Origin: Bacteroidaceae bacterium
GTDB lineage: Bacteria; Bacteroidota; Bacteroidia; Bacteroidales; Bacteroidaceae
Assembly: GCA_017541025.1 (NCBI GenBank)
Contig: JAFXZY010000029.1
Location: forward strand, 1-33,519
DNA: 33,519 nucleotides
Direction: 5' to 3'
Numbering within the stretch: the first letter of the stretch is position 1; the number at the start of each line of letters is the position of its first letter. The notes under the pieces were generated by a model, which searched no databases, was not told where the DNA came from, and saw only the letters and a program-made list of their open reading frames with translations. Below are positions 8,043 through 29,777 of this stretch, piece after piece. The translations under genes and the position numbers were made by a program.

Positions 8043-8801
8043 ATGAAGAAATATATTATAGCAATGGCTATGCTGGCTGTTCTGCCCGTAGCCGCACAGA
8101 AGAAAGTTGTAAAAGAGGTTGTTGCTCCAACTCCAACTACAGATAATGTACTCACAGAGCAGGAGGTGCGCGAAGGCTGGAAACTCCTTTGGGACGGTAA
8201 AACCACAGAAGGTTGGCGCGGCGCTAAACTTGCCGGTTTCCCTACAAGGGGGTGGCGCATTGAGGATGGTGTGCTGAAGGTCGAAGCTGCCAATGGTGCA
8301 GAAAGTGGTAATGGTGGCGACATCGTAACCAACAAAAGTTATCATAACTTCATCCTGAAGGTTGATTTTAAGATTACCGAAGGTGCCAACAGCGGTATCA
8401 AGTATTTCGTGGATCCTGATATGAACCAGGGCGAGGGTAGTGCTATCGGTTGTGAGTTCCAGATTCTGGACGACCTGCGTCATCCCGATGCCAAGTTGGG
8501 CGTTAAGGGTAACCGTAAGTTGGGTTCTCTTTATGACCTGATTCCCGCTCCCGAGAACAAGCCCTTCGACATTACCACCTGGAACACAGCAATGGTTATT
8601 GTAAAGGATATGCACGTAGAGCATTGGCTGAATGGTGTAAAGTTGTTGGAATACGAGCGCAATACACAGGAGTGGGACGCACTTGTAGCCTACAGCAAAT
8701 ACAAGAACTGGCCTAATTTCGGTAACCGCGACGGACGCATCCTCTTGCAGGACCATGGCAACGAGGTGTGGTTTAAGAATGTTAAGATTAAGGAATTTTA
8801 A
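8043..8801 (+). CDS. Secreted DUF1080 (3-keto-disaccharide hydrolase) family protein
   Basis: A 252-residue protein with an N-terminal signal peptide ([19 protein letters not shown]). The rest is a concanavalin-like beta-sandwich of the DUF1080 family: [17 protein letters not shown] near 46, [19 protein letters not shown] near 100, [10 protein letters not shown] near 127, [15 protein letters not shown] near 155, [19 protein letters not shown] near 180 and a final [22 protein letters not shown]. Characterised relatives cleave C3-oxidised glycosides. It sits directly after a Gfo/Idh/MocA oxidoreductase, the usual partner that would make the 3-keto substrate. The RNA leader carries a long inverted repeat that may affect expression relative to the upstream gene. 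Confidence 0.88.
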
Positions 8802-8813
8802 ATGCTTGCACAC

Positions 8814-11123
8814 ATGAGGAAAATCATTTTGTCAACTATTGCCACACTGTTTTGTGTCGGTTCTTTTGCAATAACAGACCCCGTTCAGTACGTGAATCCC
8901 TTGGTGGGCTCTCACTCTACGGGAGGCTTATCTACAGGTAATACCTATCCCGCGATTGCCCTTCCTTGGGGTATGAACTTCTGGACTCCCCAGACCGGTA
9001 AGATGGGCGACGGATGGTGTTATACTTATGACGCTGAGAAAATTCGCGGCTTCAAGCAGACCCATCAGCCCAGTCCCTGGATGAACGACTATGGTATGTT
9101 CAACATTATGCCCGAGTGCGGTGAGGATTATATCTTTGATGAGGCTAAGCGCGCGAGTTGGTTCTCTCATAAGGCAGAGGTGAGCAAACCACATTATTAT
9201 AAGGTATATCTGGCCGATTACGATATCGTAACGGAAGTTGCTCCTACCAGTCGTGCTGCCATCTTCCGCTTTACCTATCCTGCTGGCAAGAGTTACCTGG
9301 TAGTAGATGCTTTCGACCGCGGTTCCTACGTAAAGATTATCCCCGAGCAGAATAAGATTGTGGGTTATACCACACGTAACAGTGGAGGTGTGCCCCGTAA
9401 CTTCAAGAACTACTTTGTTCTGCAGTTCGACCGTCCCTTCACCATTACCGCTATCTGCGACGCAGGTGCCGAGAATAAGTCAGCCCTGGAGGCTACCAGC
9501 AAACATGCGCAGGGTGTTGTTGGTTTCAATACCAAGCGTGGCGAACAGGTAAACGTTCGTGTTGCCAGCTCTTTTATCAGTATCGAACAGGCCGAGCAGA
9601 ACCTGAAGGAGTTGAGTAACAAGACCTTGGAGCAGGTTAGCGAGGAAGGCCGTCAGGAATGGAACAAGGTCCTCTCTACTATCGATGTACAGGACGAGAG
9701 CGATGTGGATCGCCTGCGTACTTTCTATAGCTGTCTTTATCGTAGCGTCCTCTTCCCCCGCAGCTTTTTCGAGATTAATGCTCAGGGACAAGTGGTTCAC
9801 TACAGCCCCTATAACGGCGAGACCCTTCCCGGCTATCTCTTTGCCGATACCGGTTTCTGGGATACCTTCCGTGCTTTGTTCCCCTTGGTGAACCTGATGT
9901 GGCCCTCTATGAGTCAGAAGATGCAGGAAGGTTGGGCCAATGCCTATAAGGAGAGCGGTTTCCTGCCCGAGTGGAGTGCTCCCGGTCATCGTGCCTGCAT
10001 GGTAGGTAACAACTCAGCATCCGTAGTTGCCGATGCATATCTGAAGGGTGTGCGCGGTTATGATATCGATGCCCTGTGGGAGGCTGTTAAGCATGGTGCT
10101 AATGCCGACCTGCCCAGAACCACCAGTGGACGTAAGCAGTGGCAGACCTATAACAAGTTGGGTTATGTACCTTACGATAGCATCAATGAGAGTGCTGCAC
10201 GTACCCTCGAATATGCCTTCGACGACTGGAGCATTTATAAGTTAGGACAGGCTTTGGGTAAGCCCGAGAAAGAAATCCAGGTTTATGCCGAGCATGCCAT
10301 GAACTACAAGAACCTCTTTGATAAGAGCCATAACCTGATGCGAGGCAAGTTGGCCAATGGCGAGTGGGCTCCCAACTTCAATCCTTTCAAGTGGGGCGAT
10401 GCCTTTACCGAAGGTAACAGCTGGCACTACTCTTGGAGTGTTTTCCATGACCCTCAGGGACTTATCGACCTGATGGGCGGAACAGCCACCTTTAATCAGA
10501 TGCTCGACAGCGTCTTTATCCTGCCTCCTATCTTCGACGACAGCTACTACGGCGGCGTTATCCATGAGATTCGTGAGATGCAGATTATGAATATGGGAAA
10601 CTATGCTCACGGCAACCAGCCTATCCAGCACATGATTTACATGTACAACTATAGCGGTCAGCCTTGGAAAACCCAGTATTGGTTGCGCGAGACTATGAAC
10701 CGTATGTATAACGCCCATGCCGACGGTTATTGCGGTGACGAGGACAACGGTCAGACTTCTGCCTGGTATATCTTTACCGCTATGGGCTTCTATCCCGTAT
10801 GCCCCGGATCTAACCAGTATGTGCTGGGTGCTCCCTACTTCAAGAAGATGACGATGCATCTCGAGAATGGTAAGGATGTGGTGATTACAGCTCCCGAGAA
10901 TAGCGACGAGAACCGTTATGTTCAGAAGCTCACTGTTAACGGCGCAGAGCATAAGGTGAACTACGTGAACCATGCCGACCTGCTGCAGGGTGCCAGAATG
11001 GACTATGTGATGGGCCCCAAGGCAAACGAGTATCGCGGCAATACAGCAGAGGCTGCTCCCTATTCCTTCAGCAAGGAGTACAAGGCAGCACCCCAGAAGG
11101 GCAAAAAGAAATTTAAAAAGTAA
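8814..11123 (+). CDS. GH92 alpha-mannosidase, probably alpha-1,2-specific
   Basis: A 769-residue secreted exo-mannosidase with signal peptide MRKIILSTIATLFCVGSFA. The ATG at 8814 is preferred over 8802 because the signal then starts at MRK. GH92 hallmarks: VNPLVGS, GNTYPAIALPWGM, GFKQTHQPSPWMNDYG, the EGNSWHYSW motif with Glu533, IHEIREM with His584-Glu585, and GDEDNGQTSAWY with Asp642/Asp644. As I recall the literature on BT3990 (a Bacteroides alpha-1,2-mannosidase), its catalytic acid, base pair and His-Glu specificity pair carry the same numbers, and Trp89 here would match its Trp88. The enzyme therefore looks catalytically complete, with alpha-1,2 preference inferred. It is followed after 11 nt by a GH76 gene. 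Confidence 0.93.
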   Translation: MRKIILSTIATLFCVGSFAITDPVQYVNPLVGSHSTGGLSTGNTYPAIALPWGMNFWTPQTGKMGDGWCYTYDAEKIRGFKQTHQPSPWMNDYGMFNIMPECGEDYIFDEAKRASWFSHKAEVSKPHYYKVYLADYDIVTEVAPTSRAAIFRFTYPAGKSYLVVDAFDRGSYVKIIPEQNKIVGYTTRNSGGVPRNFKNYFVLQFDRPFTITAICDAGAENKSALEATSKHAQGVVGFNTKRGEQVNVRVASSFISIEQAEQNLKELSNKTLEQVSEEGRQEWNKVLSTIDVQDESDVDRLRTFYSCLYRSVLFPRSFFEINAQGQVVHYSPYNGETLPGYLFADTGFWDTFRALFPLVNLMWPSMSQKMQEGWANAYKESGFLPEWSAPGHRACMVGNNSASVVADAYLKGVRGYDIDALWEAVKHGANADLPRTTSGRKQWQTYNKLGYVPYDSINESAARTLEYAFDDWSIYKLGQALGKPEKEIQVYAEHAMNYKNLFDKSHNLMRGKLANGEWAPNFNPFKWGDAFTEGNSWHYSWSVFHDPQGLIDLMGGTATFNQMLDSVFILPPIFDDSYYGGVIHEIREMQIMNMGNYAHGNQPIQHMIYMYNYSGQPWKTQYWLRETMNRMYNAHADGYCGDEDNGQTSAWYIFTAMGFYPVCPGSNQYVLGAPYFKKMTMHLENGKDVVITAPENSDENRYVQKLTVNGAEHKVNYVNHADLLQGARMDYVMGPKANEYRGNTAEAAPYSFSKEYKAAPQKGKKKFKK

Positions 11124-16547: not shown

Positions 16548-16589
16548 TATCGTAGAAAAACAGCAAGCAGGATTGTCTATAAAATAGAA
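16548..16589 (+). promoter_or_regulatory. Candidate ECF-dependent autoregulatory promoter, module 1
   Basis: A 42-bp block that aligns without gaps to 19988-20029 upstream of the second sigma gene. Shared parts include TATCGTA, AAAAAC, an AG dinucleotide, a TGTCT box and a final TAGAA. GTCT in the -10 position with an A-rich AAC element 14 bp upstream is ECF-promoter-like and unlike the TAnnTTTG promoters elsewhere in the window. The sigma ATG is 11 nt downstream of the block. Confidence 0.65.
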
Positions 16590-16600
16590 AACGACAGTAT

Positions 16601-17089
16601 ATGATTGACAAGACGATACTTCACAGACTCTTTTGCCTGCACTACAGCGAAATGATTCGCTTGGCCAGAACGCTCATGTACGACTATTCCGAAGCTGAAG
16701 ACATCGTTCAGGATATCTTCGTGCGACTCATGCAAAGCGACATTCTTCCTGCAGATGACAAAGTGAGAGCCTACTTGATGACAGCCGTACGTAATGGCTG
16801 TATTAACCGCATCAGGAAGAAGTCCATAACCAACCAGTTCCGCGAACTCTATTCTATGGATATTGATTCTGATTGGCAGCACATTGAACAACGGATGGAA
16901 ACTATTGATGCCATTTGCGACTATGCCGAGAACCATCTTCAAGAACCGCACCTCACAATCTTTCGGCTTCGCTTTGAGGATGACATGAAGCTGAAAGACA
17001 TAGCCAACCAACTCGGCATGAACCTCAAGACTGTTTTCAAGTATCTCAGCCAATCTATCGATGAAATCCAAAAACATTTCACCATTTAA
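16601..17089 (+). CDS. ECF RNA polymerase sigma factor, module 1
   Basis: A 162-residue sigma-70 family ECF factor. Region 2 includes LFCLHYSEMIRLARTLMYDYSEAEDIVQDIFVRL (core binding and -10 recognition), and region 4 includes LRFEDDMKLKDIANQLGMNLKTVFKYLSQSIDEI (an HTH for -35 recognition). It is short with no extra C-terminal domain. It is 12 nt upstream of an anti-sigma-like membrane protein and is paralogous to the sigma factor at 20069, sharing the same start register and motif order. It probably activates its own operon via the 42-bp upstream block (inference). Confidence 0.92.
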   Translation: MIDKTILHRLFCLHYSEMIRLARTLMYDYSEAEDIVQDIFVRLMQSDILPADDKVRAYLMTAVRNGCINRIRKKSITNQFRELYSMDIDSDWQHIEQRMETIDAICDYAENHLQEPHLTIFRLRFEDDMKLKDIANQLGMNLKTVFKYLSQSIDEIQKHFTI

Positions 17090-17101
17090 AATACCGAAGT
17101 T

Positions 17102-17791
17102 ATGAACACAACACTTGACAATATCAGCAAACTATTGAAAATGCTCGACAACCCCAGCATATATACCGAGCAAGAAATCCAGGACATCATCAATAGCAAC
17201 GACGAGACTCGCAAGACATACCATCTGATGGTGGCAGCAAAACAAGGCTATCGCCACAGACAGACGCACGGAGGGAAAGACACAGATACTTCGTGGCAAC
17301 AGTTTGAGCAGAAAAACTATACTAAAAGTAAAACCACACAACACTTTTGGATACGCGTTGCCGCTTTTTTCCTCGGTGCCATTTTCCTCACAGGACTTTC
17401 CTTTGCCGCAGGTCTGTCTTACGCTACTCATCGCGCCAAAGCATCAAGGCATGAAATGAAGACCCAAGAGTTTGCTGAAGAGAAAATGCTGGAGCTTTCC
17501 GATGACGGAGAACGTATTATTATAACCTGGCTAAAGGGAACCTGGGTGGAGGGCGATTTTGGAAGCTATATCGAGGCTGACCCCATAGAGCACTCGCCCG
17601 CCTTACCGCTCTATGGCGAGTATAAAGCCACCATAAAACTGAACGGGGAGAAAATTGATATTGACAACCTTCCTGACCTCCCTGCCTCATCAGTAAACAA
17701 GATGGAAATCCGCTTTACTGCAGGGCGAATCGTCAACCTTATAACCACACCTGTAGAGATTCCATACGCTGACGATTCCTACGGAGAATAA
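17102..17791 (+). CDS. Single-pass membrane anti-sigma-like protein, module 1
   Basis: A 229-residue protein with a cytoplasmic N-terminal region (LLKMLDNPSIYTEQEIQDI, about 11-30), one transmembrane segment (about 83-107: FWIRVAAFFLGAIFL...) and a periplasmic C-terminal domain of about 120 residues. The periplasmic part has WLKGTWVEGD and LNGEKIDIDNLPDLPASSV, also found in the paralogue (WCKGTWVVNGD, LDGKVLDINNLPDLPASAL). It has no FecR-type or zinc anti-sigma motif that I recognise. Location just after an ECF gene and the N-in/C-out single-pass topology support an anti-sigma role (inference). The periplasmic domain would sense the signal. Confidence 0.72.
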   Translation: MNTTLDNISKLLKMLDNPSIYTEQEIQDIINSNDETRKTYHLMVAAKQGYRHRQTHGGKDTDTSWQQFEQKNYTKSKTTQHFWIRVAAFFLGAIFLTGLSFAAGLSYATHRAKASRHEMKTQEFAEEKMLELSDDGERIIITWLKGTWVEGDFGSYIEADPIEHSPALPLYGEYKATIKLNGEKIDIDNLPDLPASSVNKMEIRFTAGRIVNLITTPVEIPYADDSYGE

Positions 17792-17844
17792 GAATACAAG
17801 TGAAATCACAGGAAATTACCTTTATTAATTAACACCATAAACTT

Positions 17845-19899
17845 ATGAAACATCCTTCTCTTCCGATGAAGGTCGCCACCTTCATATTGCTACTATTATG
17901 CCCGTTCGTTGGTAAAGCACAGTATAAAAGTAACTGGCTCTGGCCCGTCAAGGGGCAGAAGGCGGGGCAAGGTATCCTATACCGCCCGCAGGACATAATT
18001 GGAGAAGAACAGAACTTCGACAACCTCTTTATTACTGCTCCCGAAGGGACGGAGATTATCTGTCCAGATGATGCTGTGGTGGAGAACTATAGTTTCAGCT
18101 ACAATCCATCACTCGTCACCTCCAACAGTTGGGGTGCATCAGATAAGCCTTACCATGAGGTCGTGGCCGAACATAAGGATGAGTTCCGCAAGAAAGGATG
18201 GGACATTCGCTGTTTCTCCGTCCAGATTGGACTTAAGATTGGAAATAAGAAACTATGGATTAAAGGCCTGCGACGCGATAAAGCCATACCCACAGGTACC
18301 CGTCTGAGGCGCGGCGATTTACTTGGCACCATAGGCTATAGCTACCATGTTATTAATGAACCCAGTATTTCTGTGGCCATCTCGTACGAAGGAAAATGCG
18401 ACGACCCCATGACGCCCTTCGGTTTGCGTACTACCTTCCGAAAGCCGGAGCCCCAACCCACCAAGTTCCATCTGACTCATGACGAGGCGGTGGCTGATTA
18501 TAAACAACTGGCCAGCAGCATGAAGGAGATTTACCCTTCCTTGGAAGACCTGATGACCGAGCAAGAATACGATGCCTTTGTCAGCGAACAACTGAAGCGC
18601 ATTCCTGCCGACGGCATCGCGCTAAAGGACTTTGCCGGAATCGTTTATGATTACAACAAGGTTATTCATGATTCGCACATCAACATCCGTTGCCCCGTTC
18701 CTGAAAACCCGCAGGACAAGAAGAAAGGTCAGGTGTATTATTATTCACCCCTTATGGTTGGGCACGTTGCAGAAGGTGATTCGTCTGATTATGTCTGCGT
18801 GGTGTTACTTGCCGCCGATGGCGTTCATTCCAATTATGTGGGCAGACGCGTAGCACGCATAGACGGGAAGCCTGTCAGCGAACTGCGGGACAATATCCGT
18901 CGTAACATAGCACTCTATGATGCTGACGTGACATCCGTGGCAGACGAAGCTCTCTTTTACCCAAGCGTATCCATATGTCCGTTCAGAAAAGATGATTCGT
19001 CTGCAAAAAAAACACAGATATATGAATTCGAGGACGGCGAACGGGTAGAACTCCCCTTGGCAGATTGTTTCAGAGGCAGCGATGCTGACAGAAAGAAGTG
19101 GTTTCGTCGCAACGATATCAACCGCCACAAGGATAGTCCCATTGGCGTTCGCCAGTTGAACGACAGCGTCCTTTACATCGGCCTCAGCACCTTCGAACTC
19201 AGCCAGGTGGATTGCGACAGCATTGTAGAAGCCATCCATGCTGCAGAACGCAATAAGGTGCCCAACCTTATCTTCGACGTACGCAACAATTATGGCGGGC
19301 ATGGTGATGTAATGGCACGTATCACTCGCGCCCTGATGGGACGAACACCCGACTGTCCGCATAAAGGTTACCTGAAAGTCAATGCTGCCACTTTCAGCAG
19401 TCCCACCTTAAACTGGATTGCTGGCGATACAATCTTTGGTGATTTCAAACCTATTGAAGGTCGTAAGGGACTTTACCAGATGCCTAACGAAGAAGATAAC
19501 GATAGCCCATCTGTCGATTCCCTTGGCTATAACGGTCGCCTTTACGTTCTAATAGACAGTCACTCCGCTTCAGCTTCCGCTTTCCTGGCAGGAACCATCA
19601 AACGCAATTATCGTGGTTATATTGTAGGCCGTGAGACCAAGAGCGCCTACCATTGCGAGACTGCCATCAAGTTTGCCAACATCCAGCTCGCCAACAGTCA
19701 GTTCACAGCCACCATTCCTATGGTACGCATAGTCTTTGATGAGACCACTAACGACCGCCTGCCTGCTCTGCGTGGCGTGATACCCGACTGTAACATCCCT
19801 CTCAGCGAGGAGGAGTTCCACTACGATGGTGATTACATTCTGGATCGCACCCTCCAACTCATTGCTGACGGCACATATATAGAAATCCATCGCTCCTAA
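17845..19899 (+). CDS. Secreted protein: degenerate M23/LytM-like domain fused to S41-type peptidase, module 1
   Basis: A 684-residue exported protein with signal peptide MKHPSLPMKVATFILLLLCPFVGKAQ. Residues ~30-205 look like an M23/LytM fold (WLWPVKGQKAG, APEGTEIICPDDAVVE, GTRLRRGDLLGTIGYSYH, then DPMTPFG), but the metal-ligand HxH of M23 is missing (EPSISVAIS). From ~215 follows an S41-like domain: IHDSHINI (His275-Asp-Ser-His278), VPNLIFDVRNNYGGHG and IDSHSASASAFLAG with a likely nucleophile Ser576. No Lys is found 25 residues later as in C-terminal processing proteases; GRETKSAYH lies there. A tricorn-like Ser-His arrangement using DSH is possible (inference). It sits 53 nt after the anti-sigma gene. 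Confidence 0.8.
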   Translation: MKHPSLPMKVATFILLLLCPFVGKAQYKSNWLWPVKGQKAGQGILYRPQDIIGEEQNFDNLFITAPEGTEIICPDDAVVENYSFSYNPSLVTSNSWGASDKPYHEVVAEHKDEFRKKGWDIRCFSVQIGLKIGNKKLWIKGLRRDKAIPTGTRLRRGDLLGTIGYSYHVINEPSISVAISYEGKCDDPMTPFGLRTTFRKPEPQPTKFHLTHDEAVADYKQLASSMKEIYPSLEDLMTEQEYDAFVSEQLKRIPADGIALKDFAGIVYDYNKVIHDSHINIRCPVPENPQDKKKGQVYYYSPLMVGHVAEGDSSDYVCVVLLAADGVHSNYVGRRVARIDGKPVSELRDNIRRNIALYDADVTSVADEALFYPSVSICPFRKDDSSAKKTQIYEFEDGERVELPLADCFRGSDADRKKWFRRNDINRHKDSPIGVRQLNDSVLYIGLSTFELSQVDCDSIVEAIHAAERNKVPNLIFDVRNNYGGHGDVMARITRALMGRTPDCPHKGYLKVNAATFSSPTLNWIAGDTIFGDFKPIEGRKGLYQMPNEEDNDSPSVDSLGYNGRLYVLIDSHSASASAFLAGTIKRNYRGYIVGRETKSAYHCETAIKFANIQLANSQFTATIPMVRIVFDETTNDRLPALRGVIPDCNIPLSEEEFHYDGDYILDRTLQLIADGTYIEIHRS

Positions 19900-19964
19900 T
19901 GGCAATTGCTTTCATCTGCCTCTTGCTTATCTTGTTGCTTTATTATTATACAAGGAAAAAGTGA
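19899..19964 (+). CDS. Putative 21-residue hydrophobic membrane micropeptide
   Basis: An ATG overlaps the stop of the S41 gene (TAATG) and opens a 21-codon frame: Met-Ala-Ile-Ala-Phe-Ile-Cys, an LLLILLLYYY core and a final TRKK before TGA. This is a single transmembrane helix with a basic C-terminal tail. Translation by coupling from the upstream gene is possible. No counterpart follows the second S41 gene, and its small size means it may be chance. Confidence 0.35.
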   Translation: MAIAFICLLLILLLYYYTRKK

Positions 19965-19987
19965 GCATTTTAAAAGAAAAATGAGTT

Positions 19988-20029
19988 TATCGTAAAAAAA
20001 CTTATACCAGAAGTGTCTTATAGGTAGAA
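19988..20029 (+). promoter_or_regulatory. Candidate ECF-dependent autoregulatory promoter, module 2
   Basis: Gap-free 42-bp counterpart of 16548-16589: TATCGTA, AAAAAAC, AG, GTGTCTTATA and TAGAA. The preferred sigma start (20069) is 39 nt further downstream. Confidence 0.65.
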
Positions 20030-20068
20030 GTGTCCCTGAACGGGATGCACAAGAACAAAAAAAATGAT

Positions 20069-20593
20069 ATGCTTGAACAAAGAAAACTTGAAAAGCTTTT
20101 CCGCCAGAACTACAGCAAGATGATACATCTAGCCAGCGTGTTGCTGGGAGACGGCGGCGAAGCAGAGGATGTGGTGCAGGACATCTTCCTGAAATTGGCT
20201 GACAGCGACATTCAGCCCCAGAATGACAGTTATCTGCTGACTGCCGTCAGAAATGCCTGTCTGAACAGAATCCGTCAGATGCAACTGCAACAAAGGGTGA
20301 AGAACCTGCTGCCAGTTGAGACCGAAACTGACCAGCAGACCGTTAATATGGAACAACTGGAGGATATTGCAGCCTATGTGGATGAGCAGTTGGAGGAGCC
20401 GCATCACAGCATCTTCCACCTTCGCTTCGACGAGGACCTGACAATCGCAGAGATTGCCCGTAGGCTTAACCTGAATCCAAATACCACCTACAAGTATCTC
20501 ACACAAAGCATTCAGAGAATTAAGAACAACTTCAAACAAGAGAATTATGAAAGAGGAAAAGACTATCAGACAGCTTCTGGAAATGCTCGATAA
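20069..20593 (+). CDS. ECF RNA polymerase sigma factor, module 2
   Basis: A 174-residue ECF sigma factor paralogous to the one at 16601. Region 2: LFRQNYSKMIHLASVLLGDGGEAEDVVQDIFLKL; region 4: LRFDEDLTIAEIARRLNLNPNTTYKYLTQSIQRI. Start at 20069 (MLEQRKLEKLF) is chosen because it lines up with the start of the paralogue; in-frame starts at 20045 (ATG) and 20030 (GTG) would add poorly conserved residues. The last 47 nt overlap the start of the following anti-sigma gene in another frame, an unusually long overlap that couples the two proteins tightly. Confidence 0.9.
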   Translation: MLEQRKLEKLFRQNYSKMIHLASVLLGDGGEAEDVVQDIFLKLADSDIQPQNDSYLLTAVRNACLNRIRQMQLQQRVKNLLPVETETDQQTVNMEQLEDIAAYVDEQLEEPHHSIFHLRFDEDLTIAEIARRLNLNPNTTYKYLTQSIQRIKNNFKQENYERGKDYQTASGNAR

Positions 20594-21548
20594 CCCTGAG
20601 ACATATACCGAGCAGGAAATACGCGACATCATCAACCATGATGAGGAGACGCGCGAGGCTTATCGCCTGATGGTGGAAGCCAAACGCAGTAGCCGTCATA
20701 CACACGCCAACAATCTTACGAACGTAGATGCAGCATGGAAGCGTTTCAACCAGAAACACAAGGCCAAGAAGCAACGCTCCAGCTGGATGAAGATTGCCGC
20801 CTCGTTCATCATCGTGCTTCTTATTACCGGCGTCTCCTTTGCGGCATATCGTGCTGCTACGATTCCCAAGCAGGTCGAAGAGACAAAGGTTGACAAGAAG
20901 TATGCAAATAAAAAGATGCTGCACGCCTACCGCTTGCCAAAAGATGCACCCAAATGGCAGAAAGAACGTCTTAGTGATGCCATATGGGTATCATGGTGCA
21001 AAGGAACGTGGGTCGTGAATGGAGACGATTCCTTTGTAGAGGAACATCCCTTTTGCGATATAAGCTATTTATTTTTTGTAAAGAATTCCACCGTCATACT
21101 CGATGGCAAAGTACTTGACATTAACAACCTGCCCGACTTGCCAGCTTCAGCGCTGAAAAAGATAACCATTCACTATAATAAGGACGGTCACGGAACGGCT
21201 CATCTTAGTACCAAACCAGTTCAGATTCCCGTTAACGTGAAGGGCAACATCAACCCAGAGCTGACAATCCTGCTGACCGGTACTGTGCCCAAGGGGGCCT
21301 ACCAGCCCGTCACCATCTGGGAGTGCAAAGGCCTTAAGGATAGCTATGACTGGCATGACTATACCTATACATCTTGGACGGCAGAAAGTGATAACATCAG
21401 TATGAAACTGAAGGAAGTCGCCATTCGCAAAGACCATCGCGTGCGCGTAAACATCTGCAAGGGTACTCCCCAGAAACACATCGACCGCATAAAGAAACTG
21501 ATGCAAGAAAATGGCGTGACCAACTACGAACTGGTAAACCAAAAATAA
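20547..21548 (+). CDS. Single-pass membrane anti-sigma-like protein, module 2
   Basis: A 333-residue paralogue of the protein at 17102. N-terminal cytoplasmic region (LLEMLDNPETYTEQEIRDIIN, about 10-30), transmembrane segment at about 81-101 (MKIAASFIIVLLITGVSFAA), then a periplasmic region with WCKGTWVVNGD and ILDGKVLDINNLPDLP. It carries about 100 extra C-terminal residues not present in module 1, including ELTILLTGTVPKGAYQPVTI and a final region rich in Lys. The start at 20547 is supported by alignment to the module 1 N-terminus despite the 47-nt overlap with the sigma gene. Function inferred from position and topology. Confidence 0.72.
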   Translation: MKEEKTIRQLLEMLDNPETYTEQEIRDIINHDEETREAYRLMVEAKRSSRHTHANNLTNVDAAWKRFNQKHKAKKQRSSWMKIAASFIIVLLITGVSFAAYRAATIPKQVEETKVDKKYANKKMLHAYRLPKDAPKWQKERLSDAIWVSWCKGTWVVNGDDSFVEEHPFCDISYLFFVKNSTVILDGKVLDINNLPDLPASALKKITIHYNKDGHGTAHLSTKPVQIPVNVKGNINPELTILLTGTVPKGAYQPVTIWECKGLKDSYDWHDYTYTSWTAESDNISMKLKEVAIRKDHRVRVNICKGTPQKHIDRIKKLMQENGVTNYELVNQK

Positions 21549-21566
21549 TTTCTTAAACTTATTCTT

Positions 21567-23576
21567 ATGAAACATCTCAATTCTTGGATGAGGGCCGCAA
21601 CCCTCATCCTGCTACTGCTGTGCCTCATCTGCCAAGGCAGAGCACAATCTGAAAACGTCTGGCTTTGGCCCATTGAGGGACAAAAGGCTGGTACAAACAT
21701 TCTGCTTCGTCCACAAGACCCGTTGGACCACGAGGCCAACTATTGCGACCTTATCATCGGAGCCAAGGAAGGCACGGAAGTTATTGCTCCGGCTGACGGC
21801 GTAATCACGAGCCAGATGCTTACTTATCGTTCCGGCCTGTACCAATGCAGGACTTATGGTTATGATGATGCCAGGACTTTTGATGCCATGCGTAAGAAAA
21901 TGGAGGAAGACCCTGATGTCCGTGACCCTAAGAAGTATATCAATGGCGACATCGGACTGAAACTTACGGATGGTAGGGAAATACACTTCTCCGGACTTCG
22001 CGGCAATGCTGCATTCAAATCCGGCCAGAGCATAAAAGCAGGAACGGTACTGGGTACGGTCAGCTACGTTTTCGAGAAAGTAGGCGAGCCGCACATTTCC
22101 ATTTCTGTCAGCAAGGACGGCAAACCCATAGACCCTATGACCCCCTTCGGATTGCAGACTACATTCAAGGAGGGCGAAGCATTCACGCCTCCGGAGAAGC
22201 TTACCCGAGAGCAGGCCAACGAGGATTTCGACTTCTTTATGGAGAGTCTTCGCGAATGCGTTCCTTCTTATCGCGACATCATCACGCCGGAACTTGAAGC
22301 CGAGTTCGTACGCAATTGTAAGGCAAAATTGGATGCCGATTCGGTCAGCTTTACTACGCTTCACGACATAGTGGGCGATGCCTTTACGGCCCGTTTCTTT
22401 CATGATTCCCACGCCTGGAGGCAATCTTCCAACCCATTCCCCAACCCCAGCAGCAACGTTCAGTACCCGGCTATCATGCTCTGCACATTGGGTGACCGTA
22501 TGTTTGTGCGTCAGGTGCAGCCAGGTTATGAGGAACATATCGGCAAGGAGGTTGCTACCGTCAACGGCATCCCGGCCAAGGAGCAAGTGTCTCATCATCG
22601 CAAAAAAACGGAGCTCTTCGATGCAAAAGTAGAATCAACAGTTGCTATACAATTGCTGGCAAACTGGTGGGGACAGTATGATGACACATTCACAGGCACA
22701 GGGGCACACCTGACCTTTACCGACGGCACCAGCGTGGATGCGCCTTACCTGAAGCGCGATCAGGTCAAACGCTACACGCCACAACCAACTGGCCCCATCG
22801 CCTACTACGTTCACAAAAACCAAAACAGAAAAGAGGATTGGAGCTTTAAGATGCTGAATGACAAGACGGCTCTGCTGACGTTGGGCCACTTTCAGTTGAA
22901 TGAAGTACAGATGGACAACATAGCAGACAGCCTAAAGGCTCACGCCAAGGTGCCTAACCTTATTATAGATGTACGTGACAACTATGGGGGAAATGCAGAA
23001 TGCGAGGGACGGCTCCTGAATATGTTCCTGTTTGAGAAGCCTGTAACATTCAACTGCCAGATGGTGAACAGCAACAGCACATACCGCAGCTTTAGCCATT
23101 GCTATAACTGGAGCAAAGAAATGAAGCCCTTTGAAGACTTCGTGAAGATAGAGGGGAAAGAAGGATTCTATAACAGAGATGCATTTTCTGAGACAAAGAC
23201 CTCAGCAAAACCTAAGAAGAACGATGCTATCTACAAAGGAAAGCTATATGTTCTTATCAACGAGGGCTCTGTCAGTGCCGCAACCGACTTCCCCGCTCAT
23301 CTGGTACGTGCCAAGCGTGCCGTAAGTATCGGACGTGAAACCGCTACGGCTTACCATTACATGACAGCCTTGAAGTTTGCCCGTCTGTTCCTTCCCAACA
23401 CCAGGATAGAATATCATCTGCCACTTGTTAAGGCCATTACAGCAACTGATGTCTCAGAGCGCTTCCCTTATGGCAGAGGTTTGTTGCCCGATATAGAAGT
23501 GCCCTTGACCCAGGAGGAAGTTTTCTTCTCTACAGAAGATGTGATACTGAAAAAGGCATTAGACATCATAAGATAA
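21567..23576 (+). CDS. Secreted protein: degenerate M23/LytM-like domain fused to S41-type peptidase, module 2
   Basis: A 669-residue paralogue of the protein at 17845, with signal peptide MKHLNSWMRAATLILLLLCLICQGRAQ. The M23/LytM-like part is better preserved (GTEVIAPADGVIT, FKSGQSIKAGTVLGTVSY, GEPHISISVSKDGKPIDP) yet still has HIS where M23 enzymes have HLH, so it is probably inactive as a metallopeptidase. The S41-like part has FFHDSH (279-282), VPNLIIDVRDNYGGNAECE and INEGSVSAATDFPAH with likely nucleophile Ser570, followed by GRETATAYHY and no Lys at the Ser-Lys position. It starts 18 nt after the anti-sigma gene, completing the second copy of the sigma / anti-sigma / protease module. 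Confidence 0.8.
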   Translation: MKHLNSWMRAATLILLLLCLICQGRAQSENVWLWPIEGQKAGTNILLRPQDPLDHEANYCDLIIGAKEGTEVIAPADGVITSQMLTYRSGLYQCRTYGYDDARTFDAMRKKMEEDPDVRDPKKYINGDIGLKLTDGREIHFSGLRGNAAFKSGQSIKAGTVLGTVSYVFEKVGEPHISISVSKDGKPIDPMTPFGLQTTFKEGEAFTPPEKLTREQANEDFDFFMESLRECVPSYRDIITPELEAEFVRNCKAKLDADSVSFTTLHDIVGDAFTARFFHDSHAWRQSSNPFPNPSSNVQYPAIMLCTLGDRMFVRQVQPGYEEHIGKEVATVNGIPAKEQVSHHRKKTELFDAKVESTVAIQLLANWWGQYDDTFTGTGAHLTFTDGTSVDAPYLKRDQVKRYTPQPTGPIAYYVHKNQNRKEDWSFKMLNDKTALLTLGHFQLNEVQMDNIADSLKAHAKVPNLIIDVRDNYGGNAECEGRLLNMFLFEKPVTFNCQMVNSNSTYRSFSHCYNWSKEMKPFEDFVKIEGKEGFYNRDAFSETKTSAKPKKNDAIYKGKLYVLINEGSVSAATDFPAHLVRAKRAVSIGRETATAYHYMTALKFARLFLPNTRIEYHLPLVKAITATDVSERFPYGRGLLPDIEVPLTQEEVFFSTEDVILKKALDIIR

Positions 23577-25025: not shown

Positions 25026-28000
25026 TTAATAATCACGCTGGATATCTGCGATTTTCTCGTGCAGGCGGGCCATCTGTTCTTCCTGCAGGACACGCTTGTA
25101 CTCGATGGGAACAACCTGTATGAAGTCCTCCACGTGGCGGTTCCAGTCGTCCAGCATACGGCCTGCTAATGCAGAACCTGTGTGCAGATAGTGCTGACGG
25201 ATAAGCTCCAGCAGTTCCTTGCGGTGTGAAGCTTCCTCCACCAAGTTAATCTCCACCATATCCATGTTGCAGAAGTAGTCGAAGGTATGGTCGGGGTCGT
25301 AAACGTATGCTACACCACCGCTCATACCTGCAGCAAAGTTACGTCCCGTCTTACCCAAGACAACGACACGACCACCAGTCATGTACTCGCAACAATGGTC
25401 GCCGGCACCCTCCACAACAGCGATAGCGCCAGAGTTGCGGACTGCAAAGCGCTCGCCTACACGCCCGTTCACATACAGCTCGCCGCTGGTGGCTCCGTAT
25501 AAACCGGTATTACCGGCAATGATATTGTCCTCGGCATGGAAGTTGATGTCACTTCTTGCGGGAGGCAGGATGCTGATGCGACCACCGGAAAGACCCTTGC
25601 CGAAATAGTCGTTGGTTTCGCCTTCCAGACGCAGGTTCAGACCGCGAACGGCAAAGGCACCAAAGGACTGACCGGCCGAGCCCTTGAACTTGATATTGAT
25701 GGTACTGTCGGGCAAGCCCTTCTCGCCGTACTTCCGGGCAATAGCGCCTGAGAGCATGGTGCAGGCTGCACGGTCTGTGTTCTTGATAGCGTACGAAGCC
25801 TCACCCCCGTCCCCTCTCCCGGAGGCGAGGGGAGAAGATAATATTTCCTCAAAGTCTGCCAGTATCTGTTTGTTGAGTAGGTTACCGTTCACTCCAGTAT
25901 AGTCGCCACGGTCCCAGTAGAGCACCTTATCCGTCTGGGGTTTGTACAGCAGGCGACCGAAGTCGATGGTGCGCCACTTCCCAGCGGTAAAGTTCCCCTC
26001 GCCCACGGGAGAGGGGTTAGGGGTGAGGCTCTCAATCAGTTCCGTCCGCCCGATAATCTCCTTCAAACTCTTTACGCCTATCTCAGCGAGGTATTCGCGA
26101 ACCTGCTCGGCCAGGAAAGTGAAGAAGTTCACCACATATTCGGCACGACCCATAAAACGGGCTCTGAGCCGTTCGTCCTGCGTGGCAACACCTACGGGGC
26201 AGGTGTTGGTATTACACTTGCGCATCATTACGCAACCCAACACAATCAGGGGCAGCGTACCGAACGAGAACTCGTCGGCACCTAACATCGCCATGATGAT
26301 AACATCCTTGGCAGTCTTCAGCTGACCGTCGGTCTGCAGGCGGACCTGATTACGCAGTCCGTTCATCACCAGCGTCTGCTGTGTCTCGGCAAGACCTATC
26401 TCGGGCGAGATACCGGCAAAGCGCATACTGCTGGCAGGACTGGCACCCGTTCCGCCCTCGGCACCGCTGATTACAATCAGGTCGGCCTTAGCCTTGGCTA
26501 CACCGGCAGCAATGGTTCCTACACCACTCTCGGCAACCAACTTTACGCTCACGGCTGCTGTGGGATTGATATTCTTCAGGTCGAAGATAAGCTGTGCCAA
26601 ATCCTCGATTGAATAAATATCGTGATGAGGTGGAGGTGAAATCAATGAGATGCCAGGGATGGCATTACGTGTCTTGGCGATAATGTCGTTCACCTTGAAA
26701 CCGGGAAGCTGACCGCCCTCGCCGGGCTTCGCACCCTGCGCCACCTTAATTTGAATCTCCTCGGCATTCACCAGATATTCAGCTGTAACGCCGAAACGAC
26801 CTGATGCAATCTGCTTGGTCTTGCTGGAGAGCGAAACACCGTCCACATCCGAGTAATAGCGGGCATTATCCTCACCACCTTCACCAGTGTTGCTTCGTGT
26901 GCCCAGTTTATTCATCGCCAGAGCCAAAGCCTCGTGGGCTTCGATACTCAAGGCACCGAAACTCATGGCACCGGTTACGAAGTGTTTAACGATGTTCTCT
27001 ACAGGCTCTACCTCGTCAATAGGTGTGGGCTTGGCAGCCTTCTTGAAGCCGAAAAAGTCGCGGAGGAAGATTGGCTTCTCCTTCTCATCCACCATAGCAG
27101 ACCACTCCTTAAACTTCTTGTATGAGCCCAATCGGGTAGCTATCTGCAGATTAGCTATGGTATCAGGATTCCATGCATGAAGGATTCCGTCCTTGCGATA
27201 AGAGAACTGACCGTTGTTCTGCAGTAAAGTGTTCCCCTCGCCCACGGGAGAGGGGTTAGGGGTGAGGCTCTTCTTCTGCAGACGGATTTGATCCCTCGCA
27301 ATCTCTTTCAGACCTATACCTCCAATGGTACTCACCTCCGTACCGAAGTAGCGGCGCAGGAGGTCTTCGCTGAGGCCGATGCTCTCGAATATCTTGGCAC
27401 CGCGATAACTGCGGATGGTGCTGATACCCATCTTGGACATAATCTTCTTCAGCCCCTTATCTACGGCTTTAATATAATGAGCCTCGGCTGTTGCATAATC
27501 CTCCTGAATCTTGTGCTTCTTCACCAGGTCGTCCAACACGGCAAAGGTCATGTAAGGACAAATGGCACTGGCACCGTAACCTAAGAGCAGAGCGGCGTGC
27601 ATCACCTCGCGTATCTCACCGCTCTCGACAATCAGGGCTGTCTGCACCCGCTTGCCCACGCTAATCAGGTAGTGGTGAACAGCAGAAACGGCCAATAACG
27701 AGGGTATGTAGAAAGCCCCCTCCCGACCTCCCCCTTGGGGGAGGAGTTCCATCTTGTCAGTTAGTATAATATAGTTATAGCCGTTATCCACAGCTTCCTC
27801 CGCGTCTTTGCAGAGCTTGTCCAGGGCCATTCCCAACGCTTCTCCGGCCTGGGAGTAATTGTCCCCCTCGCCCACAAAGCTCCCCTCTCTCACGGGAGAG
27901 GGGCCGGGGGTGAGGCTAGAGGTTGGCAGGGGGCTGGTCATCGGCAACTTGATGGTCTTGAAACCCTTATATCGGATATTGCATAATATGTCCAACTGTG

Positions 28001-29777
28001 TATTCGTCAGCACAGGTTGTGGCAGGCGAACCATCTTGCAGTTGCTGGCATCGGGTGTCAGGATGTTGGTTCCCACGGCACCGATATACTCTGTCAGACT
28101 CATCACCAGTTCCTCTCGGATGGGGTCGATGGCGGGGTTGGTAACCTGCGCGAACTGCTGACGGAAATAGTTGAAGAATATCTGGGGGCGGTCGCTGATA
28201 ACAGCCAGCGGCGTATCGTTACCCATCGCAGCCACAGGCTCCTGACCGGCTGTTGCCATAGGGATGATGGTTTTGTCAATGTCTTCCTGTCCGTAGCCGA
28301 ACTGTACGAGTTTGCGTTCGAGGTTCTCTACAGAATTTTCTACGTGGCGACCGCTCTTCAGTTTCTCCAGCTGGATACGGTTGGTGCTCAGCCATTCGCG
28401 ATAGGGGTGAGCCTTGGCCAGCTGCTCCTTGATCTCGCCATCGTAGTATATCTTGCCTTCCAGGGTATCTATGAGCAGAATCTTTCCGGGCTGCAGACGA
28501 CCTTTGCTGACCACATCACCGGGTTCGAAGTCCATTACGCCAACCTCGGAGGCAACAACTATCATACCGTTCTTGGTGATGGTGTAACGACTGGGGCGCA
28601 GACCGTTTCTGTCGAGCATACCGCCGGCAAAACGACCGTCCGAGAACAACAGAGCAGCAGGACCGTCCCACGGCTCCATCAGGATAGAATGATACTCGTA
28701 GAACGCCTTCAGGTCTTCAGAGATGGGATTCTTGTCGTTGAAACTCTCCGGCACCAGAATAGCCATCGCCTGTGGTAGCGAGAGCCCGCTCATCATCAGG
28801 AACTCGAATACGTTGTCGAGACTGGCTGAGTCACTCATACCTTCCTGAACAATGGGACGGAGGTCCTTGATATCTCCTAATGCCTCGCTGCTCAGCACAC
28901 TTTCGCGTGCCTTCATCCAGCCTCGGTTGCCGCGGATAGTGTTGATTTCGCCGTTATGAGCCAAAAGGCGGAAGGGCTGTGCCAGCTTCCATTTGGGGAA
29001 CGTGTTGGTCGAGAAACGAGAATGTACCAATGCCAGTCCGCTGGTAAAGTAGGGATTGGAAAGGTCCGGGAAGTAGCGGCGCAGCTGCCCGCTGGTGAGC
29101 ATACCCTTGTAGATGATGTTCTTTGTGGAGAGAGAGCAGATATAGAAAGCCTCACCCCCGGCCCATCTCCAAGGGGAGAGGGGAGTTTCAGACTTTGTTA
29201 GTGCTTCCACCCTGTTCTCTATTCTCTTCCTTATAATATATAGTTTACGGTCAAGTTCTGACGTATTGCTAGGCAGAAGAGCGCTCCCCTCGCCCACAAA
29301 GTTCCCCTCGCCCACGGGAGAGGGGTTCGGGGTGAGGCTGTTGGGGGCGGTTACGAAAATCTGTTTGATTTCCGGCTCCACCTCACGTGCGGCAGCACCT
29401 AAAACATCCGGGCAGGTGGGAACCGTGCGCATATGCATCAGTTGCAGTCCTTCGCGTTCAATCTCCTCGATCATCACAGAGAGAATCTCCTGTTGTGCCT
29501 TCTCGTCTTTGGGAAGGAATACCAATCCTGTTCCGTAGCGGCCCTTTTCGGGTACGGGTATGCCTTGTAGCAGAATAAACTCGTGCGGAATCTGCACCAT
29601 AATGCCAGCACCGTCACCCGTCTTGTCGCGTGTCTCAGCACCACGGTGCTCCATATTCTCCAGCACCTTCAGTGCATTGTCCACCAGTTCATGACTCTTT
29701 CCGCCGTGGATGTTCACTACCATTCCCACGCCGCAAGCATCATGCTCGTAAGCTTCGTTGTATAATCCCTGATTCAT
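25026..29777 (-). CDS. gltB: Glutamate synthase large subunit, expanded by in-frame palindromic repeats
   Basis: A 1583-residue GOGAT alpha subunit; members are usually about 1500. The N-terminal glutaminase (Ntn) domain has the mature-start cysteine in DACGVGMV (Cys15) and PRNGLRPSRY-type elements (DRNGLRPSRYTI). The central and FMN-binding domains include GGEDNARYYS, SGRFGVTAEYLVNAEEIQIKVAQG, LISPPPHHDIYSIEDL and GCVMMRKCNTNTCPVGVATQ (iron-sulfur cysteines). The C-terminal GXGXG domain has GSAGQSFGAF and GGRISI. Seven GC-rich palindromic repeats are read through in frame (about residues 147-165, 197-210, 621-639, 676-688, 837-849, 1250-1262, 1314-1327), mostly in places that look like surface loops. 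All catalytic motifs lie outside them, so the enzyme probably works. Confidence 0.95.
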   Translation of the reverse strand: MNQGLYNEAYEHDACGVGMVVNIHGGKSHELVDNALKVLENMEHRGAETRDKTGDGAGIMVQIPHEFILLQGIPVPEKGRYGTGLVFLPKDEKAQQEILSVMIEEIEREGLQLMHMRTVPTCPDVLGAAAREVEPEIKQIFVTAPNSLTPNPSPVGEGNFVGEGSALLPSNTSELDRKLYIIRKRIENRVEALTKSETPLSPWRWAGGEAFYICSLSTKNIIYKGMLTSGQLRRYFPDLSNPYFTSGLALVHSRFSTNTFPKWKLAQPFRLLAHNGEINTIRGNRGWMKARESVLSSEALGDIKDLRPIVQEGMSDSASLDNVFEFLMMSGLSLPQAMAILVPESFNDKNPISEDLKAFYEYHSILMEPWDGPAALLFSDGRFAGGMLDRNGLRPSRYTITKNGMIVVASEVGVMDFEPGDVVSKGRLQPGKILLIDTLEGKIYYDGEIKEQLAKAHPYREWLSTNRIQLEKLKSGRHVENSVENLERKLVQFGYGQEDIDKTIIPMATAGQEPVAAMGNDTPLAVISDRPQIFFNYFRQQFAQVTNPAIDPIREELVMSLTEYIGAVGTNILTPDASNCKMVRLPQPVLTNTQLDILCNIRYKGFKTIKLPMTSPLPTSSLTPGPSPVREGSFVGEGDNYSQAGEALGMALDKLCKDAEEAVDNGYNYIILTDKMELLPQGGGREGAFYIPSLLAVSAVHHYLISVGKRVQTALIVESGEIREVMHAALLLGYGASAICPYMTFAVLDDLVKKHKIQEDYATAEAHYIKAVDKGLKKIMSKMGISTIRSYRGAKIFESIGLSEDLLRRYFGTEVSTIGGIGLKEIARDQIRLQKKSLTPNPSPVGEGNTLLQNNGQFSYRKDGILHAWNPDTIANLQIATRLGSYKKFKEWSAMVDEKEKPIFLRDFFGFKKAAKPTPIDEVEPVENIVKHFVTGAMSFGALSIEAHEALALAMNKLGTRSNTGEGGEDNARYYSDVDGVSLSSKTKQIASGRFGVTAEYLVNAEEIQIKVAQGAKPGEGGQLPGFKVNDIIAKTRNAIPGISLISPPPHHDIYSIEDLAQLIFDLKNINPTAAVSVKLVAESGVGTIAAGVAKAKADLIVISGAEGGTGASPASSMRFAGISPEIGLAETQQTLVMNGLRNQVRLQTDGQLKTAKDVIIMAMLGADEFSFGTLPLIVLGCVMMRKCNTNTCPVGVATQDERLRARFMGRAEYVVNFFTFLAEQVREYLAEIGVKSLKEIIGRTELIESLTPNPSPVGEGNFTAGKWRTIDFGRLLYKPQTDKVLYWDRGDYTGVNGNLLNKQILADFEEILSSPLASGRGDGGEASYAIKNTDRAACTMLSGAIARKYGEKGLPDSTINIKFKGSAGQSFGAFAVRGLNLRLEGETNDYFGKGLSGGRISILPPARSDINFHAEDNIIAGNTGLYGATSGELYVNGRVGERFAVRNSGAIAVVEGAGDHCCEYMTGGRVVVLGKTGRNFAAGMSGGVAYVYDPDHTFDYFCNMDMVEINLVEEASHRKELLELIRQHYLHTGSALAGRMLDDWNRHVEDFIQVVPIEYKRVLQEEQMARLHEKIADIQRDY
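25798..25836. repeat. Palindromic repeat in gltB (orientation B)
   Basis: GCCTCACCCCCGTCCCC, CTCCCGGAGGCGAGGGG. Read in the gltB frame it gives SSPLASGRGDGGEAS. Opposite orientation to the copies at 25993 and 27231. Confidence 0.88.
25993..26030. repeat. Palindromic repeat in gltB (orientation A)
   Basis: TTCCCCTCGCCCACGGGAGA then GGGGTTAGGGGTGAGGCT. Encodes SLTPNPSPVGEGN within gltB. Confidence 0.92.
27231..27269. repeat. Palindromic repeat in gltB (orientation A)
   Basis: Near-identical to 25993-26030 (TTCCCCTCGCCCACGGGAG, GGGGTTAGGGGTGAGGCT); encodes SLTPNPSPVGEGN. Confidence 0.92.
27714..27750. repeat. Palindromic repeat in gltB, CCTCCCCCTTGGGGGAGG subtype
   Basis: GCCCCCTCCCGACCTCCC followed by CCTTGGGGGAGGAG. 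Encodes LPQGGGREGAF; a related but different subtype from the SLTPNPSP copies. Confidence 0.85.
27863..27917. repeat. Composite palindromic repeat in gltB with internal partial duplication
   Basis: An extra CCCCTCGCCCACAAAG unit precedes CTCCCCTCTCTCACGGGAG and the GGCCGGGGGTGAGGCT end. Encodes SLTPGPSPVREGSFVGEGDN. Confidence 0.88.
29148..29188. repeat. Palindromic repeat in gltB (orientation B)
   Basis: GCCTCACCCCCGGCCCATCT then CCAAGGGGAGAGGGGAG; encodes TPLSPWRWAGGEA in the gltB frame. Confidence 0.88.
29284..29339. repeat. Composite palindromic repeat in gltB with internal partial duplication
   Basis: CTCCCCTCGCCCACAAAG plus TTCCCCTCGCCCACGGGAG and the GGGTGAGGCT end; encodes SLTPNPSPVGEGNFVGEGS. 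It has the same duplicated unit as the copy at 27863. Confidence 0.9.

Follow-up and report, generated by a model that had tools for sequence, protein, structure and literature searches.

Two adjacent sigma factor cassettes of a Bacteroidaceae bacterium as putative envelope-stress operons built from exchangeable parts

Introduction

In the BlaI/BlaR1 and MecI/MecR1 systems, a membrane sensor-transducer controls an output gene that protects the cell envelope, and BlaR1 is itself a protease. In FecI/FecR and IutY, an extracytoplasmic function (ECF) sigma factor is followed by a membrane-anchored anti-sigma factor, and coevolution of sigma and anti-sigma is known for FecI/FecR (PMC9239204). Here we analyse a locus with parts of these kinds in a 33,519-nucleotide contig from a Bacteroidaceae bacterium (JAFXZY010000029.1, assembly GCA_017541025.1; the window hereafter). 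Two cassettes stand side by side, each encoding an ECF sigma factor, an anti-sigma-like membrane protein and a secreted fusion of a degenerate M23 (LytM)-like domain with an S41 peptidase domain.

The separate parts are of known kinds, and their combination is a variant on them. In titles and abstract openings, a literature outside which subscription journals mostly fall, we recognised no account of the fusion, of the periplasmic domain that we call KGTW, or of its exchange among three transducers. We consider that each cassette is probably (at roughly 55%) a self-inducing envelope-stress operon built from three exchangeable parts, with the protease fusion as its output.

Results

Six forward-strand genes of the window (16601-23576) encode, twice over, a sigma factor, an anti-sigma-like protein and an M23-like plus S41 fusion (Table 1). 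The initial annotation had proposed two cassettes of the same gene order with homologous products, and pairwise BLASTP agrees, with 44% identity between the sigma factors (154 columns, E 4e-47), 38% between the anti-sigma-like proteins (229 columns, E 3e-46) and 31% between the fusions (706 columns, E 5e-97). Anti-sigma and fusion genes run in one direction with short gaps (17791 to 17845 in cassette A, 21548 to 21567 in cassette B). Both sigma factors exceed the Pfam cut-offs for Sigma70_r2 and Sigma70_r4_2, as befits the ECF class, and the general ECF model alone passes its NCBIfam cut-off among the window matches; membership of the GFO_1088 sigma and GFO_1087 S41 families was rejected, these matches lying far under cut-off. 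Sigma B has three candidate starts (GTG 20030, ATG 20045 and ATG 20069). Each anti-sigma-like protein contains one strongly hydrophobic segment, in keeping with the single-pass topology first proposed, and Pfam places neither BlaI nor BlaR1 among the six window genes.

Table 1. Features of the two cassettes. Domain bounds in the anti-sigma-like proteins and fusions come from profiles built in this analysis, and membrane segments from hydrophobicity; E-values are from Pfam.
Feature	Position	Strand	Description
Promoter-like site before sigma A	16551..16578	+	CGTA-N-AAAAAC, 13-base spacer, GTCT
ECF sigma factor A	16601..17089	+	Sigma70_r2 2.1e-12, Sigma70_r4_2 4.1e-6
Anti-sigma-like protein A	17102..17791	+	ASN cytoplasmic domain 6-75, hydrophobic segment 86-104, periplasmic KGTW 121-226
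Fusion A	17845..19899	+	Signal-peptide-like start, degenerate M23-like 28-201, S41 part 206-680; Peptidase_S41 1.5e-17
Out-of-frame remnant of fusion A C-terminal membrane anchor	19899..19964	+	DNA compared with an alignment of relatives
Promoter-like site before sigma B	19991..20018	+	Second of two motif matches in own genome
ECF sigma factor B	20045..20593	+	Sigma70_r2 6.6e-10, Sigma70_r4_2 2.2e-6
Anti-sigma-like protein B	20547..21548	+	ASN 5-74, hydrophobic segment 83-101, KGTW 116-233, extra C-terminal domain 226-333
Fusion B	21567..23576	+	Degenerate M23-like 29-203, S41 part 208-669, C-terminal anchor absent; Peptidase_S41 8.2e-17

The gene neighbourhoods of related fusions place this kind of protein behind several kinds of switch. 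With profiles built in this analysis, 47 full fusions were found in 54 sources; picked by similarity and related to one another, they are not a random sample. The stretches fetched around matches numbered 19, 20, 14 and 13, with L088-L091 and L102, judged by length, repeating contigs of a named-genome scan, and L001-L006 themselves are excluded from the counts. A switch gene lies directly upstream of 18 of the 47 fusions. It is an ASN anti-sigma bearing KGTW in window A, window B, L089 copy A and L095, and an ASN anti-sigma bearing TonB_C in L089 copy B; a zf-HC2-type anti-sigma with KGTW takes this place in L088, L090, L098, L100, L102 and L104, and a sigma factor fused to TonB_C in L048. A BlaR1-type gene directly precedes the fusion in 6/47, with KGTW in L096 and with TonB_C in L037, L097, L099, L103 and L105, and BlaI is in reach in five of these six. 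Two fusion starts at contig ends, outside the 47, follow a BlaR1-KGTW gene (L050) and a zf-HC2-KGTW gene (L106). Examples from L037, L048, L001, L043 and L132 exceeded the Pfam cut-offs for TonB_C, Penicillinase_R, Peptidase_M56 and zf-HC2; zf-HC2 passed in L132 and L043 and fell under cut-off in L055, as did Peptidase_M56 in L096.

Of the fusions, 27/47 have a sigma, BlaI or BlaR1 gene at most 5 kb away, and in 22/47 it is upstream on the same strand; counting sigma genes only, the number within 5 kb is 24/47. On these counts, the expectation that protease-like genes would accompany ECF and anti-sigma genes in other genomes held. The 3.28 Mb of the window's own genome contain 24 Sigma70_r2 places, from which we estimate the chance expectation of a sigma gene near a fusion at about one in eleven. 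Sigma genes also lie near fusions beyond the window's genus (L040, L043, L045, L132, L133 and L138). The link is not obligatory, because 20/47 fusions lack any of these regulators within 5 kb. These unaccompanied fusions, and the mosaic identities across the cassette described below, would suit a mere neighbour, an accessory envelope gene brought near regulators by frequent recombination and not controlled by them. We regard this reading as very improbable given the short same-direction gaps inside each cassette and the recurrence of upstream same-strand regulators.

Some neighbouring proteins are worth recording. Between an ECF sigma gene and a fusion, L040:4068-4910 encodes a protein without a Pfam match, perhaps another type of sensor. 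The sigma-TonB_C proteins (L048:2154-3179, L092:813-1757, L094:13044-13991 and L098:3383-4423) are possibly membrane-tethered sigma factors, and in the window's own genome a Sigma70_r2 match (contig C89:31037-31228) lies in a 346-residue open frame, the length of these sigma-TonB_C fusions.

Phylogenetic analysis indicates that the parts of the cassette have separate histories. Within an older Bacteroidales family, fusions A and B belong to separate clades and have nearer relatives elsewhere, while the ASN-type sigma factors, both window copies included, form one clade (96/88); duplication of the whole module in tandem is therefore rejected, and the original description of a plain tandem duplicate was overstated. 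The group of fusion A also contains three zf-HC2-type loci and one ASN locus; fusion B groups with ASN and zf-HC2 types, BlaR1 types standing further out. Mapping the seven front-end labels onto the fusion tree takes 11 changes (at least 6 are required, and shuffled labels average 17.4), and mapping transducer type onto the KGTW tree takes 8 (at least 3 required, shuffled average 13.9); the labels are clustered, yet have been exchanged repeatedly. The sigma tree requires 6 changes overall (minimum 4), two of them for zf-HC2 sigmas, and unites the sigma-TonB_C fusions in one clade (100/100). Because ASN sigmas and sigma-TonB_C fusions form separate clades, the sigma factor travels with the cytoplasmic part of its anti-sigma. 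All three trees carry long-branch warnings.

Alignments of close relatives locate the seams at or near the membrane. Window A is about 80% alike in DNA to L088, L090 and L102 from 17354-17357 to the fusion end (with a gap in L102) and shows no likeness before; this seam corresponds to codon 84-85, at the start of the hydrophobic segment. Between window B and L089, the seam is codon 101, at the end of the segment; the periplasmic part is unlike, and likeness resumes after the stop codon at 96%. Fusion B and its L089 counterpart are 98% identical, yet the periplasmic domains encoded next to them are unrelated (KGTW in the window, TonB_C in L089). A third seam, between L192 and L193, lies at codon 100, the start of segment 100-118, and neither stretch contains a fusion. 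Together, trees and seams show three exchangeable parts: the sigma factor with the anti-sigma cytoplasmic domain, the membrane segment with its periplasmic sensor (KGTW or TonB_C), and the fusion.

Comparison of the window with L089 yields a mosaic of identities. Depending on the region, identity is 99.2-99.8% in sigma A and anti-sigma A, against 93.5% and 94.8% in the two genes at the flanks; in fusion A it is 88.0% for the S41 part and 81.1% for the M23-like part. Synonymous divergence is 0.02 for sigma A and 0.01 for anti-sigma A, but reaches 0.30 in the flanking glutamine synthetase gene and 0.78 in the M23-like part. Because divergence of the latter is synonymous too, it suggests replacement of the M23-like part of fusion A by a distant allele; positive selection on this domain was not seen (ratio of nonsynonymous to synonymous divergence, 0.23). 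The two fusion genes begin with a stretch of 61 bases that is 72% alike; similar across clades as well, it may have offered a handle for recombination.

A promoter-like motif precedes both sigma genes. In the own genome, CGTANAAAAAC-N12to14-GTCT has exactly two matches, one before each sigma gene, and a reversed control has 0. With a fixed 13-base spacer, ASN sigma genes show 0 of 17 mismatches in window A, 1 in window B, 0 in L089 A, 4 in L089 B and 4 in L095, the last two having identical boxes with a spacer one base longer. At fixed spacing, twelve zf-HC2-type genes have 4 to 8 mismatches of 17, and three sigma-TonB_C genes have 7 to 8. The motif accompanies close ASN sigmas and fades in L192 and L092. 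We infer, with caution because the genome-wide search covered exact matches only, that the main target of each sigma is its own operon.

The anti-sigma-like proteins have few counterparts in databases. Pfam has no match at all to anti-sigma A, its ASN domain included, and five weak matches to anti-sigma B, all under cut-off; neither protein matches zf-HC2 or FecR. Kinship of the ASN domain with zf-HC2 is not supported (hhalign probability 1.8%). A role in anti-phage defence was rejected, the single match, of anti-sigma B to AbiEi, being weak (E 0.002). For the extra C-terminal domain of anti-sigma B, Pfam matched ExbD/TolR in 5/9 members (best E 0.018; member 1 under cut-off), but hhalign gave a probability of 0.8% versus 1.0% for a sigma control, and ExbD/TolR identity is not supported. 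Gene order and joint inheritance with the sigma factor point to an anti-sigma role for the ASN proteins.

The initial annotation singled out WxKGTWV and NLPDLPAS as a shared periplasmic signature that it could not assign to a known anti-sigma class. Both recur in proteins of relatives, and the KGTW domain has no credible match in Pfam (one weak match among 11 members, E 0.16) or in the PDB (best E 0.37), which leaves that description standing. The domain is carried by window-type (ASN) anti-sigmas, by zf-HC2 anti-sigmas and by BlaR1, and occurs in 18/301 genomes of a family sample, the own genome included. Neither the M23-like domain nor the S41 fusion was matched in thirteen stretches fetched around KGTW matches in 11 genomes; 12 of these stretches contain a sigma or BlaI gene somewhere, and L186 has only a KGTW-bearing BlaR1-type protein. 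We propose, at slightly less than even odds, that KGTW is an undescribed plug-in sensor on three unrelated transducers (two anti-sigma kinds and the BlaR1 protease), exchanged with or without the membrane segment. If so, the three transducers would have to respond to one form of transmembrane signal, for which regulated proteolysis and altered oligomeric state are examples.

Two further KGTW loci deserve mention. The zf-HC2/KGTW genes L193:6518-7477 and L190:7153-8136 are similar on either side of a divergent stretch within KGTW (codons 107-205), possibly a further replacement. In L198, a sigma/KGTW pair and a GLPGLI-type gene lie beside genes for small proteins (8305-8559 and 9622-9873) that begin like a double-glycine leader peptide and end in a Cys-rich tail.

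The fusion combines a degenerate domain with one that keeps a conserved Ser and His. As first described, the LytM-like domain lacks its metal ligands: the zinc-binding His, Asp and His, at positions that we presume to correspond to those of LytM, are each found in 0/47 fusions, and a further His of the HxH motif is retained in 25/47. Pfam matches Peptidase_M23 in copy B only (4.2e-6, 27.3 bits versus a cut-off of 28.7). The S41 assignment also holds, with Peptidase_S41 above the Pfam cut-off in both fusions and the nucleophilic Ser in 46/47, the remaining row being a gap. The His of an HDSH motif is found in 47/47 fusions, and the Lys of Prc/CtpA-type S41 peptidases in 0/47 (one gap), so the fusions lack a Ser-Lys dyad. 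Positions were taken from alignments, and the roles of Ser, His and Lys are those that we assume for S41 enzymes; presumably the domain is nearer to CPAF/tricorn-type S41. A C-terminal anchor is predicted in 27/47 fusions by a hydrophobicity threshold. It is in frame in L001, L003 and L004, close relatives of fusion A, is lost in copy A and is absent from fusion B and its clade of 13.

Loss of ligands and of the Lys might instead mean that the fusion works without catalysis, as an adaptor or sensor whose S41 fold binds peptides or wall fragments and presents them to the anti-sigma or to a wall enzyme. The degenerate M23-like part fits this idea, as does the failure to recognise a conserved Glu near the C-terminus in the alignment columns looked at. 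Invariance of Ser and His is, however, what we would expect under selection for CPAF/tricorn-type catalysis, and we consider an adaptor unlikely.

The M23-like domain had been proposed to bind a cell-wall ligand, and support comes from 8 other proteins in which it is joined to a hydrophobic stretch and a tail read as helix-turn-helix-like (L043:14498-15715, also L044, L046, L049 and L051-L054). These putative one-component membrane regulators support the domain as a receptor; Pfam found no match to the tail in the one protein tried. What we take to be a GLPGLI-type gene lies within 5 kb of 7/8.

The fusion could also act upstream in the pathway. The initial annotation favoured regulated proteolysis, with the M23-like part binding a wall ligand and the S41 part possibly processing the anti-sigma. 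Spelled out, the M23-like part would sense the ligand and activate the S41 part, which would make the first cut of the anti-sigma before an M50 site-2 protease frees the sigma factor. The fusion does share an operon with the anti-sigma, Ser and His are conserved, the linkers beside the membrane are similar, and the own genome encodes one M50 protease, as do all 14 control genomes. There is also an S41 precedent, since Prc is the apparent site-1 protease of IutY, a sigma/anti-sigma fusion (PMC7593790). The circuit is weakened by 98% identical fusions beside unrelated sensors, by KGTW transducers without a fusion in the 13 stretches, and by the 20 fusions that stand without a nearby regulator. 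BlaR1, being itself a protease, should not need the fusion at all. Other S41 proteases could cut the anti-sigma, because the own genome holds 8 S41 places, of which two are the window fusions. On balance, regulated proteolysis by the fusion is a less probable, though serious, alternative.

The genome tallies for the fusion include the own genome. A fusion B query of a family sample matched 28/251 genomes at E<=1e-3, many through partial S41 or M23-like stretches, with 14 places below 1e-90 (two of them the window's). An alignment query matched 17/139 genomes of the genus at E<=1e-20 and 22/344 of the order sample at E<=1e-15; 16 places in the order sample, two being the window's, fell below 1e-130, and the rest were weaker and partial. 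Occurrence outside Bacteroidales found no support, as the phylum sample, with two candidates scored per genome, gave only the own genome (1/395 at E<=1e-40). The named-genome scan gave 6 loci, all metagenome-assembled, three from goat or buffalo rumen or reticulum.

The cassettes are flanked by what we take to be a type III glutamine synthetase gene and glutamate synthase subunit genes. No TonB-dependent receptor was recognised on reading the adjacent genes, without a profile scan. A glutamate synthase-like open reading frame (25026-29777, reverse strand) contains several in-frame repeat inserts reading like LTPNPSPVGEG, and similar stretches occur in proteins of L044, L045, L053 and L054.

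Discussion

For the model we favour, the sequence supplies domains, kept and lost residues, exchange of parts, a promoter-like pair and gene order. At rest, the cytoplasmic ASN domain of the membrane-anchored anti-sigma would keep the ECF sigma factor bound. KGTW, in cassette B together with the extra C-terminal domain, would sense an alteration of the periplasm or cell wall, upon which the anti-sigma would release the sigma factor or be destroyed. Freed sigma would then transcribe its own operon and raise the level of the secreted fusion. The fusion would most likely be the output: its dead LytM-like domain may dock on a cell-wall or envelope partner, while the Ser/His S41 domain may cleave an envelope protein. 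Sigma binding, autoinduction, signal, substrate and output role are all predictions of this model. We favour the fusion as output, comparable to the beta-lactamase behind BlaR1, because it stays constant while the switch before it varies in kind, and because almost identical fusions occur with unrelated sensors. A wall-related target of the fusion has two precedents: the hydrolases of peptidoglycan cross-links are degraded by CtpA (PMC6050968), and ActS, whose LytM domain is degenerate, activates amidases (PMC8360153).

Several observations weigh against this model. Besides the 20/47 fusions lacking a nearby regulator, the promoter-like motif is weak in L192 (2/17 mismatches) and unrecognisable in L092 (6/17), and zf-HC2-type L100 scores 4/17, equal to the two ASN-type genes with the longer spacer. 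The ASN domain is without a Pfam match, and its binding of sigma is our inference. The seam between window B and L100 lies at codon 110, in the periplasmic linker and outside the membrane edge. As membrane-side linkers of the anti-sigmas look alike across swaps, the fusion could still act on the anti-sigma. Finally, the contigs are metagenome assemblies or drafts, in which chimeras could mimic single swaps, the repeated pattern less easily.

Under the exchangeable-parts model, the loci form a natural series in which one kind of fusion stands behind ASN, zf-HC2, sigma-TonB_C and BlaI/BlaR1 switches. With one sensor domain on three unrelated transducers, signal crossing of the membrane independent of transducer type becomes testable, and a Bacteroidales family of degenerate LytM plus S41 proteins gains a candidate role.

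Several known systems are close to the cassettes. Like FecI/FecR and IutY, they encode an ECF sigma factor and then a membrane-anchored anti-sigma, but the window anti-sigmas lack a FecR match; L048, L092, L094 and L098, which fuse sigma through a hydrophobic segment to TonB_C, are reminiscent of the sigma/anti-sigma fusion IutY. The fusion shares the S41 profile and Ser nucleophile of Prc and CtpA, but has an invariant His in HDSH instead of the Lys general base. EnvC, NlpD and ActS likewise have an envelope LytM-type domain without zinc ligands, whereas that of the window is fused to a protease. BlaI/BlaR1 (MecI/MecR1) provides the parallel of a membrane sensor-transducer controlling an envelope-protecting gene, and six relatives do have a BlaR1-type gene directly before the fusion. 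In contrast, the window uses a sigma/anti-sigma switch, KGTW or TonB_C takes the place of the sensor, and a protease fusion rather than a beta-lactamase would be the output.

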